NCBI RefSeq assembly: GCF_028716865.1
Contig: NZ_JAQUOY010000024.1
Location: forward strand, 1 to 39,433
Length of the DNA: 39,433 nt
DNA from: Candidatus Methylomirabilis sp.
Lineage (GTDB): Bacteria > Methylomirabilota > Methylomirabilia > Methylomirabilales > Methylomirabilaceae
Direction of reading: 5' to 3'
How positions within the stretch are numbered: the stretch's first letter is position 1; each line of letters starts with the position of its first letter. Below the pieces are notes generated by a model, which worked only from the letters and a program-made list of their open reading frames with translations, did no database searches and was not told the DNA's origin. Both the position numbers and the translations under genes were made by a program. This document shows, in pieces, positions 15,286 to 19,524 of this stretch.

Positions 15286-15573
15286 ATGTCCAAGACGGAT
15301 ATGAAGAACCTGCACGTACCCTTGCCACAACCGCTGTATCAGCGCCTCCGCGCAGAAGCCAAACGCGAGAACCGACCGGCCACAGTCTTGGTCCGTGAGG
15401 CGATCGATCTCTGGCTTACCGAGCAGTACCGGGCCTCCGTACACGACGAGATTGCCTCCTACGCGCGAACAGTCGCGGGGACCTCTGACGATCTCGATCC
15501 GGACTTGGAAGCGGCAAGCGTTGAGCGCTTGGTGGATACCGTGGAGAACTCCGAGCGAGTTACGGACCAGTGA
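15286..15573 (+). CDS. Antitoxin of MazEF-type pair (ribbon-helix-helix-like)
   Basis: 95 aa. The N-terminal half (KNLHVPLPQPLYQRLRAEAKRENRPATVLVREAIDLWL) has the strand-helix-helix pattern of CopG/RHH DNA-binding proteins. The acidic C-terminal half (TSDDLDPDLEAASVERLVD) would wrap the toxin. It should repress its own promoter. AGGAGG lies eight bases before ATG 15286, and the stop overlaps the toxin start by four bases (GTGA), the usual layout for antitoxin-first operons. Confidence 0.85.
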   Translation: MSKTDMKNLHVPLPQPLYQRLRAEAKRENRPATVLVREAIDLWLTEQYRASVHDEIASYARTVAGTSDDLDPDLEAASVERLVDTVENSERVTDQ

Positions 15574-15917
15574 AGCGAGGCGAGGTGTATTGGGCCAGCC
15601 TTTCCCCACGGTCCGGATCCGAACAACAAGGCGCTCGGCCGGTCATCGTCGTGTCGCACGATGCGTTCAACCAGACCCCAGGGTGGCGATCCGTCATTGT
15701 GGTCCCCGTTTCCACAGCCGGCTCCCAGGCGCGACGTGGACCGACCGCCGTATCGCTCCCGGCAGGAACAGGCGGCCTGAAGAAAGATAGCGTCGCGCTT
15801 TGCCACCAAGTAACGACGCTTGATCGAAGCAAGTTGACCTCGCTTGCCGGGGTACTTCCACCCGAACTCCTCGCCCAAGTCGGCGACGGTTTAAGAATCG
15901 CACAGGATCTGCCGTAG
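15570..15917 (+). CDS. MazF/PemK-family mRNA interferase toxin
   Basis: 115 aa starting at GTG 15570. Family features: the opening strand KRGEVYWASL, RPVIVVSHDAFN with the conserved R23, VIVVPVSTA with T49, and the later strand SVALCHQVTTLDRSKL. MazF-type toxins cut RNA at short sequences and halt growth when the antitoxin is degraded. The length is normal and catalytic residues are present, so it looks intact. It sits between a respiratory island and an integron cassette, a typical place for a stabilising addiction pair. Confidence 0.9.
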   Translation: MKRGEVYWASLSPRSGSEQQGARPVIVVSHDAFNQTPGWRSVIVVPVSTAGSQARRGPTAVSLPAGTGGLKKDSVALCHQVTTLDRSKLTSLAGVLPPELLAQVGDGLRIAQDLP

Positions 15918-15939: not shown

Positions 15940-16062
15940 TCATACAACGATTTGGGCGAGCCGCCCGAGGCAGCGCACCCCGCGGCCATCCGCTTCGATC
16001 CGGCGCCAGAGTCGTCCCCCGACATAGCCAGTGACGCCCGTGACGAGAACGAGACCGCTCAT
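15940..16062 (-). pseudogene. Truncated NAD-dependent epimerase/NmrA-like fragment
   Basis: About 40 residues beginning MSGLVLVTGVTGYVGGRLW, the start of an extended short-chain dehydrogenase with its TGxxGxxG nucleotide-binding loop. The frame loses similarity after VRCLGR and stops at 15940, where a full gene would continue for 250 or more residues. It lies on the same strand as, and directly downstream of, the attC of the integron cassette, so cassette insertion or loss may have broken it. Confidence 0.6.
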
Positions 16063-16153: not shown

Positions 16154-16249
16154 GCCCAACGTTTGAGGTAACCAGCCGCCGGAGCGCGAAGCGCGGAGGG
16201 AACCCGCAAGCGCAGCTTGCGGGCGGTCCAGTCGACCGAGAGGTTATGC
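16154..16249 (-). other. attC: Integron attC recombination site
   Basis: Read on the minus strand, the site starts with GCATAAC (R'' box, matching RYYYAAC) and ends with GTTGGGC (R' box, matching GTTRRRY), 96 bases in all. Inside is a perfect 9-base hairpin, CCCGCAAGC/GCTTGCGGG, and a second GCGC-rich hairpin. GGT/ACC and CCGCC/GGCGG words near the ends can pair as the L boxes. The last bases before R' (TTACCTCAAAC) are typical of attC sites. The TAA inside R'' is the stop of the DUF4365 gene, as is common in cassettes. Confidence 0.8.
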
Positions 16250-17275
16250 ATCATCGCTATCCGGCGGGTTGAAGCCGAGACATCTAAAGCAGGCATAGGT
16301 GATGCGCTTGTTTTCTTCGATTGACATTCCAAGCCATTCGGCCATCGCATTCAGCCCAGGAAACTGGCGCATAAAAAATGTTCCCACCATTTCGGTCTCG
16401 AATATGACCCGTCGAGTCACCGTACGTGTTGACCGTTCGCCTTCCCAGGAGACGGTTGTCAAGCACAAAGCAAAAAGTCGAAGAGTGGCCGTGGGCTGCT
16501 CTGTTCGGACGAAGAACAGCAATTCGGGCAAGGCTGCTTCAAGAGCCGCCATATACCGACGAACTTCGGGAATCTCGAAGAGTTCTCGGGGGTCATTGTC
16601 GTAGCCGGAGATGCTGAACTCAATTTTCCCTTGGCACTCGTAAGCCAGTTCCTTGGTAGAGCGCAGACGATCAAAGAAAGCTCGGGGCCGCGATGTATCC
16701 ATTGAGAGAACGTCTTTGTCATCGAAAACAAATAGGACGTGGCCGGACTCCACGATCATCTTGTTGAGCGCCCAATACGCCCGTAACTCCGCTAGCGTGT
16801 CGGCCGGCGGTGGCAGGAGAGCCAATAGTGCCGCCTTAGACTGGGACAACCTATTCTCGAATGGAACTGTGATCTTCCAACCAGCTTCAGTTGTTTGTGT
16901 CTGCTCGGGTTGAAACCGAACCCAAAAACATTCACCAGACTCTGGGTCACAGACAATGATCAGGACGGGAATTGGGTAGTTCGAGAGGTAATTGAAGTGC
17001 TTCAACTCGCCACGGTAGACATAGCCCCACTTATTCTTCTCTTGTAGGAATGACCTTCCGCACTTGATTTGCATCGCGAGTAGCTGACCAGTTACCGCAC
17101 CTGAGTCAGTCACTACTTCAAGTTGGCCATCTATGCCAAAGTCGTGTTCCTGATGGTTCCGTTTGAAGAGCCACCCAAACGAATCAGAAGCGATCCGAGC
17201 AACAAGGGCAACTCCAAGTTCGCCTTGCTTGGCTGAACTAGAAAGCGTGGGGAAGCCGATGATCATGATGCATAA
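16160..17275 (-). mobile_element. Integron gene cassette carrying a DUF4365 gene
   Basis: The minus-strand GTTATGC at 17276-17270, ten bases before the start codon, is the exact complement of the GCATAAC that opens the attC at the other end. This is the junction signature of a cassette inserted at a G-TTRRRY point: when the cassette is circular, its attC ends become complementary. One gene plus one attC, about 1.1 kb, is standard. No integrase gene or second attC is visible in the window, so it may be a single cassette at a secondary site or the remains of an array. Confidence 0.75.
16244..17266 (-). CDS. DUF4365 (PD-(D/E)XK nuclease-like) cassette protein
   Basis: 340 aa. The N-terminal domain has EHDFGIDGQLEV (residues 40-51) and LLAMQIKCG (62-70). 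D46 and the QxK motif at Q66-K68 match the nuclease-type core of DUF4365, with Q in place of the usual Glu before x-Lys. The family is found in anti-phage and cassette contexts. The actual target is not known. The C-terminal half (about residues 150-340) is not recognised; it contains EHLLFFVRTEQ-like strands and two late Cys. The gene has lower GC than the island upstream, which fits separate acquisition. It starts at ATG 17266, ten bases inside the cassette, with no strong ribosome site. Confidence 0.8.
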   Translation of the reverse strand: MIIGFPTLSSSAKQGELGVALVARIASDSFGWLFKRNHQEHDFGIDGQLEVVTDSGAVTGQLLAMQIKCGRSFLQEKNKWGYVYRGELKHFNYLSNYPIPVLIIVCDPESGECFWVRFQPEQTQTTEAGWKITVPFENRLSQSKAALLALLPPPADTLAELRAYWALNKMIVESGHVLFVFDDKDVLSMDTSRPRAFFDRLRSTKELAYECQGKIEFSISGYDNDPRELFEIPEVRRYMAALEAALPELLFFVRTEQPTATLRLFALCLTTVSWEGERSTRTVTRRVIFETEMVGTFFMRQFPGLNAMAEWLGMSIEENKRITYACFRCLGFNPPDSDDA

Positions 17276-17276
17276 C

Positions 17277-17540
17277 TATTGAGTAGATTGGTCAGCCTAT
17301 CTCGACTGATGAGTTGTGAGGTTAAGACAAATCCTACAAGTTTTTCCCAGACTTAACAAGAAATTATCAGCTTTCTGGAGCATGGCCAACACTGCACGTC
17401 TGGTCAGCCTATTCCGGCAGACTCCAATGGTCTCTGCCGATCAAAGCCGAGTCGATGAGGACTCGTGAGGCGTCAGCGTTCAGAGCAAGGGCGATACATT
17501 CGTTGAGGAGCGGGCCTGTTACTGCATGCTTTACGCAGAA
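17277..17540. other. Spacer between the cassette and the LysR gene
   Basis: No convincing gene. The 11-base word GGTCAGCCTAT occurs near 17291 and again near 17401. An AT-rich stretch at 17320-17380 could hold the promoter of the cassette gene. After the LysR stop, its frame stays open on the minus strand for about 42 codons without a start codon, and that peptide is not recognised. No attI or second attC is evident. Confidence 0.35.
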
Positions 17541-18455
17541 TCAGGAATGATGAGATTCGTGAGGACGGGTGGGGGCGCCGAGGAAGGCGAGAAAGGCGTT
17601 GCAGATGGGCGAGCGGGAACGGTGGCGATGGGTGATGAGGTAGAACGGCCTGGTCAGTTTCAGGCCTGCGATGGGAATGGCGGTGAGTTCGCCGCACTTG
17701 ATATCGCTGGCGACGGCGAGCTTCGAGATGATGGCGATACCGCTGCCGGCCTTGACCGCTTGTCGGATCGCCTCGTTGCTGCCCATCTCTGCGATCACCC
17801 TGAAGGTGTCCATCGACAGATGGTGCTGCGCCAGGGCGTGTTCCATCATCTTGCGCGTTCCAGAGCCGCGCTCCCGAATGAGAAACGGCTGACTCGGCAG
17901 CTCCTTGATCTTGACGATTCTCCGGGACGCCCAGGGGTGCGTGGGCGGCACGACCAACACCATCTCGTCTTCGGCACATTGCTGGTACTCGAGCCTGCCA
18001 TCATCGAATTGTGCGCCCACGACGCCAACCTCATACGCGCCGGTCGTCACTGCCTCGATGATCTCTTTTGAGTCCGAGACCTTGAGAACGATCGAGATGT
18101 CCGGGTACTGGGCCCTGAACCGTCCGATCAGGGACGGCAGCAGATAGCCGCCGGGGATGCTGCTGGCGCCGAGTATCAGTTCTCCCTTTAGCCCTCCCCT
18201 GAGCTCGTCGAGCGCCTGTTGCGCTTCCTGGCGGAGCGCCAGAATCCGTTTGGCATAGCGATACAGCAGATCGCCGGCCTTGGTCGGGGTGGCTCGGTGC
18301 CCGAGGCGATCGAGGAGCCGGATTCCTGCCTCCTGCTCCAGTTTCTTGATGTGGCCACTGACCGTGGGCTGGGTCAGGTAGACTGCGTTGGCTGCCTTCG
18401 AGAAGCTTCCCGATTCAACGATTCTGGCGAACAGTTCGAGGGCGTGGATATCCAT
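17541..18455 (-). CDS. LysR-family transcriptional regulator
   Basis: 304 aa from ATG 18455. The helix-turn-helix lies at residues 3-62 (LELFARIVESGSFSKAANAVYLTQPTVSGHIKKLE), then a linker helix and a two-lobed effector domain (LILGASSIPGGYLLPSLIGRF onward). The longer frame to 18659 overlaps the glycosyltransferase out of frame and is rejected. The N-terminal half resembles the LysR subgroup linked with selenium metabolism, but that is from memory of the family and needs a search. The gene begins 10 bases after the glycosyltransferase stop on the same strand, so it is probably the last gene of that operon. Confidence 0.9.
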   Translation of the reverse strand: MDIHALELFARIVESGSFSKAANAVYLTQPTVSGHIKKLEQEAGIRLLDRLGHRATPTKAGDLLYRYAKRILALRQEAQQALDELRGGLKGELILGASSIPGGYLLPSLIGRFRAQYPDISIVLKVSDSKEIIEAVTTGAYEVGVVGAQFDDGRLEYQQCAEDEMVLVVPPTHPWASRRIVKIKELPSQPFLIRERGSGTRKMMEHALAQHHLSMDTFRVIAEMGSNEAIRQAVKAGSGIAIISKLAVASDIKCGELTAIPIAGLKLTRPFYLITHRHRSRSPICNAFLAFLGAPTRPHESHHS

Positions 18456-18465
18456 GATGCGTCTT

Positions 18466-19524
18466 CTATCCTCTGCGCGAGCAGGCGCCGATCGCCTCTT
18501 GATACAGTTGGAGATAATCCTGAATCTCCCCTTCTCGGGAGAACTCCCGCTCGATCTTTTCCTTCCCGTTCTTCCCCAGCGCGTGGCGCAGGCTCGGCTC
18601 CCTGATGAGCCGCTCAGCCTTGCGAGTAAACTCCGCCTCCGAACCGAAGAGCAGCCCATTGATCCCGTCTTGCACCACCGATCGGTTCCCCTCGATATCC
18701 GAAGTCAGGACCGCTCGTCCGCAACTCATCGCCTCCAGGATGCTGTTGGCCATGCCGCCTTCGGAGAGCGATGAGTTGATCACTACATCCACGGACGTAA
18801 GCATGGCGCAGATCTGCTCATGAGGAACCGATCCCAGGTAGAAGGCCCAGGGGTAGTCTCGCAGGGCTTCCCGCAATCGGGCTCCTTCCGCCGCCTCGAT
18901 GACCGGTCCCACAAAGACGGCCTTGACCTGCGGATACCGTATTCTGAGCGCGTCAAGTGGCTTCAGACAGAAGGTCACATTTTTGACGCGCCGGATGCCG
19001 GCCGGGATAAAGAAGATCAGGTCATCCGGCGTGAGATCCAGGTGCTGTCGGAGATCGAATGGGGTCTCCTGGCAGCGAACCGTCTGGCCGATCACGCGGA
19101 TTCGGCGTGCGACCTCGGGGAGTTCACCGACGAGCTTGACCCGCATACAGTCGTGAAAGACGACGATACGCGTTGCCCGCTGAAGGACGTCTATGACTTT
19201 TAACCTCCAGTGAGGATCGAAGAGATCGGTATTGACATCAGTTCCGGTGATGGTGAGGATTGAAGGGATGCCAAGCCGAAGCGCGGCCTCCGTCACGATC
19301 TGCCCCGAAGAGCTGACATGGAATCCATGGATCAGGTCAGGTGTGAAGTCTTCCAGTGCCTGCAGGATCTCGCCGGGTGAGGATCCATACTCCAGGGACC
19401 AGACTCGGACGATCACACCCTGTTCTTTCAACCCGGACTCGATGCGCTGGACCGTAATCGAATTGCCGCGGACCGAGGGGAAATAATAGGGGGTGACAAT
19501 ACCCAGTCGCATCCGCCTCCTCAT
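18466..19524 (-). CDS. GT4-like glycosyltransferase
   Basis: 352 aa with a GT-B layout. The N-terminal nucleotide-like domain opens LGIVTPYYFPSVRGNS, with TITGTD at residues 91-96. The C-terminal donor domain has GIRRVKN (176-182) and SEGGMANSILEAMSCGRAVL, where E255 and E264 form the EXnE pair (one residue longer than the usual EX7E). It transfers a sugar from a nucleotide-sugar donor, acceptor unknown. The TGTD and EGG-AN wording recalls the TIGR04348 group that includes the selenosugar synthase SenB, but the match is partial. ATG 19524 overlaps the asmA stop (ATGA). ATG 19512 with AGGAGG just before it is an alternative. Confidence 0.82.
   Translation of the reverse strand: MRRRMRLGIVTPYYFPSVRGNSITVQRIESGLKEQGVIVRVWSLEYGSSPGEILQALEDFTPDLIHGFHVSSSGQIVTEAALRLGIPSILTITGTDVNTDLFDPHWRLKVIDVLQRATRIVVFHDCMRVKLVGELPEVARRIRVIGQTVRCQETPFDLRQHLDLTPDDLIFFIPAGIRRVKNVTFCLKPLDALRIRYPQVKAVFVGPVIEAAEGARLREALRDYPWAFYLGSVPHEQICAMLTSVDVVINSSLSEGGMANSILEAMSCGRAVLTSDIEGNRSVVQDGINGLLFGSEAEFTRKAERLIREPSLRHALGKNGKEKIEREFSREGEIQDYLQLYQEAIGACSRRG

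Follow-up and report, generated by a model that had tools for sequence, protein, structure and literature searches.

Genes and features at the locus

The window, that is, the whole 39,433-nucleotide stretch of DNA that was analysed (contig NZ_JAQUOY010000024.1 of a Candidatus Methylomirabilis sp.), contains a single integron gene cassette, with an attC site at one end and a region assigned to attI at the other. The features of the locus, in the direction in which the cassette is read, are the following:

17541..18659, minus strand, gene of a LysR-family regulator, the attI-side neighbour, conserved in the genus
17404..17460, minus strand, 3′ stump of intI ending in HRLGFDRQRPLESAGIG and a stop, which matches ADRLGFNPERPLESAGIR and a stop in the IntI relic of sister genome G033
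17331..17359, minus strand, Pc-like promoter, TTGTTA-17-TAGGAT, with 55 nt from the end of the −10 box to the attI crossover
17277..17412, minus strand, putative attI region, assigned by homology to contig 60 of G033, in which the 12-nt direct repeat ATAGGCTGACCA occurs in two identical copies (17401-17412 and 17289-17300), and with a core ending in CTACTCAATA before GTT
17270..17276, minus strand, 5′ junction of the cassette, GTTATGC, with the crossover between G17276 and T17275, placed from the sequence and the cassette-free locus
16160..17275, minus strand, integron gene cassette of 1,116 bp, from TTATGC... to ...CAAACG
16244..17266, minus strand, cassette gene of 340 aa, with a DUF4365 (DREN-like PD-(D/E)XK nuclease) domain and a Crr6-like domain
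16154..16249, minus strand, attC site of 96 nt
16243..16249, minus strand, R″ box GCATAAC, from the sequence and alignment A3 (see below)
16228..16237, minus strand, L″ GGTCGACTGG, in which C16234 is an extra base relative to L′
16167..16175, minus strand, L′ CTGGTTACC; both L boxes were counted on alignment A3, and a sister site folds in this way
16154..16160, minus strand, R′ box GTTGGGC, with the crossover between G16160 and T16159, from the sequence and comparison with the cassette-free locus
15940..16062, minus strand, truncated NAD-epimerase-like gene, the attC-side neighbour, of which G033 and G034 have a longer, intact version

The original prediction had placed a cassette at 16154-17276. 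The cassette proper covers 16160-17275, while the integron reaches further, to about 17460, and includes attI, Pc and the intI stump. At the break of the epimerase gene, next to the integron's outer end, a ribbon-helix-helix antitoxin and a PemK/MazF-type toxin are encoded as a pair at 15286-15917 on the plus strand. At the far end of the window, positions 3-398 encode a stretch that is 54% identical to an ORF near intI in locus L028 of genome G091.

The cassette and its ends

The original prediction was built on three signs, and all of them are present: GTTATGC at 17270-17276 is the complement of GCATAAC at 16243-16249, the attC site ends in GTTGGGC at 16154-16160 on the minus strand, and the TAA stop of the gene (17266-16244) lies inside the R″ box. 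By itself, the 7-nt complement carries little weight, because 73 of the 834 NNNNAAC sites in the window (about 9%) have such a complement 200-2000 nt upstream. Nevertheless, the true complement between the ends of the cassette is 12 nt long (GTTATGCATCAT and ATGATGCATAAC). No second pair of this kind occurs in the window, and a Markov-shuffled window is expected to yield about 0.23. The cassette holds one ORF in the orientation of attC, and its gene has a GC content of 51.7% as against 59.3% for the window. The interval is also missing as a discrete unit between GTT-type sites in two sister species, G033 and G034. The segment 16160-17275 is a genuine integron gene cassette.

The attC site

A DNA search returned 96-nt relatives of the attC site in the genus that are 79-93% identical to it. 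In their alignment, A3, the pairing of R″ with R′ and of L″ with L′ is supported, as are the extra base of L″ and a branched tip: paired cells make up 85% of the total, but fall to 26-42% once the partner strand is shifted along. A covariance model of these genus sites, R1, recovers eight attCs that stand in tandem in an Aquabacterium array (E 5e-9 to 8e-15); some of its matches that score under about 35 bits in the genus may be false. The window's own site was among the sequences from which R1 was made, and the match of R1 there is therefore not independent; for this reason a second model, R2, was built from the eight Aquabacterium attCs and one site of a Bordetella metagenome-assembled genome, with no sequence from the phylum. 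R2 matches 16154-16249 with 43.4 bits (E 2.5e-8; the next match reaches 10.9 bits) and has no other match in the whole genome, and the predicted attC is thus borne out by an independent model. No Rfam family matches the site.

The site of the window shows the attC arrangement of R boxes, L boxes and one extra L″ base, with L pairing weakened by wobbles. On the top strand, three of the L pairs are wobbles, which turn into mismatches on the bottom strand, and the fold of the window's attC is only 1.7-2.2 s.d. below that of shuffled sequences. In predicted folds, the canonical R pairing has a near-zero probability in the integrated window copy, whereas for the sites of G025, G027 and G031 its probability on the bottom strand is high. 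Since R pairing is close to zero and the L boxes carry wobbles, excision of the window cassette is probably inefficient, to judge from these folds.

The upstream flank: attI, Pc and the intI stump

The DNA before several cassettes of the genus was compared with that behind IntI relics. In the window, the region 17277-17460 shares 86% identity over 187 nt with the stretch immediately after a relic of the IntI C-terminus on contig 60 of G033. The alignment of the window flank with that contig scores 133, whereas the best of 200 shuffles scores 22. By this homology to regions beside IntI relics, on which the assignment of attI rests, the flank is judged to be the attI/Pc region of the genus and not ordinary chromosome, and by the same homology it adjoins intI, as attI does in a complete integron. 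A functional intI is lacking there, as its remnant consists of the last ~17 codons. The original prediction had seen no integrase; this holds for an intact gene, but not for its 3′ stump.

The promoter was not called by a generic promoter scan, in which it stays under the threshold. Other attI loci of this and sister genomes have the same 17-nt spacer, with 53-55 nt to the crossover, and the conserved form is TTGYTA-17-TAnnnT at a fixed distance. The direct repeats ATAGGCTGACCA would suit integrase-binding repeats.

Integrons elsewhere in the genome and phylum

Integron integrases above the curated cut-off were found in 32 of 95 genomes of the phylum, and an intact IntI is present in the same genus (G021). 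Integrons are therefore not rare in a lineage for which the original prediction had called integron cassettes not commonly described. The intI gene of G021 is oriented towards attI, and so are the relics. The window's own genome has no TIGR02249 match above the cut-off; the proposed search for intI and further attC sites returned intI 3′ fragments only, on contigs 13, 28 and 29, and a second attC on contig 29. As the assembly comprises 53 contigs and is 99.98% complete, an intact intI could be missing from it. Tyrosine recombinases on contigs 6 and 35 were considered as integron integrases and rejected, as they fall under the cut-off and resemble XerC/XerD.

Further Pc-attI modules lie in this genome on contig 13 (39482-39515, L079), contig 20 (30861-30892, L194), contig 23 (40136-40184, L195) and contig 33 (10683-10711, L193), which brings the number to at least five including that of the window, with no intact intI found. 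On contig 23, a second unit of attI, cassette and attC can be recognized by eye, with a 239-aa cassette that has an attC-like end.

Several related loci were observed in passing. On contig 33 (L193), an acyl-CoA-dehydrogenase-like gene immediately follows the Pc-attI module, downstream of 10683 on the minus strand, as though this metabolic gene had been put behind a cassette promoter. On contig 29 (L078, 3650-6560), an IntI fragment is followed by three codirectional genes, one with a metallo-beta-lactamase fold, and an attC, as another relic integron. The IntI relics of the genus (L083, L163, L176, L078, L079, L081 and L198) are mostly 3′ fragments of 20-70 codons by attI, with N-terminal ones rarer. 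A shared cassette, with the same attC and identical flanks, was seen on contig 79 of G031 (L161) and contig 39 of G032 (L162).

The distribution of the modules allows a further, quite doubtful reading, in which Pc-attI, with the 3′ stump of intI, would be a dispersed landing pad, with modules at unrelated loci that are served in trans by an integrase from another locus. Each module would then hold zero or one cassette, or drive a resident gene. If true, this would be a scattered integron instead of one platform with one array.

Origin of the locus

On contig 156 of G033 and contig 80 of G034, the same order of LysR gene, intI stump, attI and epimerase gene is found without a cassette. With its cassette removed, the window reads CTCAATAGTTGGGCCGATGGG, and the sisters read CTCCTAGTGAGGCCGATGGG and CTCATAGTGAGGCCGATGGG. 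The best explanation, with a probability of roughly 0.87, is that the locus is a sedentary chromosomal integron that was cut down to Pc, attI, one cassette and attC by deletion of its integrase gene. The locus is read as a one-cassette integron with a deleted integrase, and not as a stray cassette, because the flank is homologous to attI/Pc regions and keeps an intI stump and because the same locus is free of the cassette in two sisters. The original reading of an integron cassette thus stands, given the attC model match and a gene that is not conserved in relatives, but the cassette is not isolated. An integron integrase, either from another integron in the cell or from a time before intI was lost, would have joined the attC of a circular cassette to attI between G and TT, and Pc would now transcribe the cassette gene.

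Because the intI-deleted junction stands in the same order, without the cassette, in G033 and G034, the deletion of intI is probably older than the split from these genomes. Either the window's lineage would then have gained the cassette, with an integrase working in trans, or the sisters would have lost it. The second course, in which the cassette was inserted before the split and later excised in the sisters, is a possible though unlikely variant of the best explanation. It would account for an intI-deleted junction common to all three genomes, as an insertion after the split, without a local intI, needs an integrase in trans; nevertheless, the gene occurs in no other genome of the phylum and looks foreign, and the sister sites read GTGAGGC and not a clean GTT, which later mutation could explain.

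In a more distant alternative, there was never an integron at the locus, and IntI put a lone cassette into a non-integron chromosomal target (attG or a secondary site). This would agree with a single cassette without an integrase and with a locus in G033 and G034 that has neither the cassette nor a detectable integrase. Its target, though, would be neither attI nor attC, whereas the 5′ flank resembles the DNA after an IntI relic, keeps the last codons of intI and has the Pc-to-crossover spacing of attI loci; the alternative is largely refuted by this homology and is very improbable. That heptamers and a hairpin merely resemble an integron by chance, as the frequency of 7-nt complements and the shallow fold of the site could suggest, is refuted, with a negligible probability left, by the R2 match, the 12-nt complement, the attI homology and the homologous cassettes of other phyla.

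Under the preferred reading of a sedentary integron that lost its integrase gene, the cassette is probably fixed in place and has effectively become a fixed gene, because no intact intI was found in the genome and the attC no longer folds well.

The cassette gene

The 340-aa product matches DUF4365 and the Crr6-like domain in Pfam with 117 and 26.5 bits, respectively. Its homologues, with 31-64% identity, come from Betaproteobacteria, Gammaproteobacteria and other groups, and none was found in the 94 other genomes of the phylum, which speaks against heptamers that are a conserved part of a non-mobile gene in relatives. The suggested look for the same cassette in other bacteria gave homologous cassettes in seven other genomes, including proteobacteria: complementary GTT... 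and ...AAC ends of 8-12 nt flank seven of the nine homologues examined (L035, L036, L038, L044, L045, L046 and L050). The extended complement of L044 shows a one-base difference that occurs at both ends together (GTTATGCCTCAT and ATGAGGCATAAC), a compensatory change. Among DUF4365 cassettes (that of the window, L036, L044 and L045, and also the ends of L167), the end complementarity was seen to extend over 12 nt, past the 7-nt R boxes and up to the start codon.

Across 14 homologues, residues D46, Q66 and K68 do not vary; they correspond to D41, Q60 and K62, the catalytic residues of NbaSPARDA (PMC12205087); profile and D...QxK motif together place the protein with the DUF4365/DREN nucleases. 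A confident protein model (mean pLDDT 89, pTM 0.60) matches SPARDA nuclease chains in Foldseek (E 3e-10), and a profile match has E 6e-6. In PADLOC, the Argonaute-associated REase and PDC-M02A models were matched in part. The features that would define a SPARDA system are absent, with no APAZ domain in Pfam and no short Argonaute partner beside the gene, whose neighbours are the LysR gene and the truncated epimerase gene. By analogy, the product is most likely a metal-dependent nuclease and a small stand-alone effector of anti-phage type; that the gene is a stand-alone defence-type nuclease is somewhat favoured.

Comparison with known systems

These results place integrons firmly in the phylum of the methane-oxidising NC10 lineage, if that assignment, taken from the NC10 suggestion of the original prediction and from kinship groups of the genomes, holds. 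The locus would be an integron caught in the middle of its decay, in which the integrase is gone, the landing site, the promoter and one cassette are kept, and the sisters show the site free of the cassette. It illustrates how a single captured gene can turn into an ordinary gene of the chromosome, and why such genes are overlooked by scans that need an integrase or two attC sites. In effect, standard scans would probably miss this integron, because it has one attC and the default of IntegronFinder 2 is two attC sites (PMC9024848).

In the chromosomal integrons of Treponema, intI is codirectional with the cassettes, and T. phagedenis kept its attC sites after the loss of intI (PMC3607928). The integrons described here are similar in that intI is upstream of attI and in the direction of the cassettes, as in the intact IntI of G021, and in that the integrase was lost while attC was kept. 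In contrast to Treponema, the locus of the window retains attI, Pc and an intI stump, has one cassette only and is accompanied by several remnants scattered over the genome. It resembles a CALIN as an attC-bearing cassette without an integrase, but a CALIN has at least two attC sites, whereas the window has one and still holds attI and Pc.

Regarding the cassette itself, a close comparison is the integron array of Aquabacterium fontiphilum (L038), whose DUF4365 cassette is homologous (59% identity) and whose attC is built similarly. The likeness covers the gene and attC; the Aquabacterium integron differs in being an array with at least eight attCs. The protein shares its N-terminal fold and its D-Q-K active-site residues with the SPARDA DREN-APAZ effector (DUF4365), but it differs in its Crr6-like C-terminal domain and in lacking both APAZ and an Argonaute neighbour. 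A decayed integron with a cassette is thus known in kind. It is new to the phylum as far as the literature found shows, where no paper was seen to link integrons with NC10, Methylomirabilota or Methylomirabilis, and the surprising part is the repetition of the Pc-attI modules.
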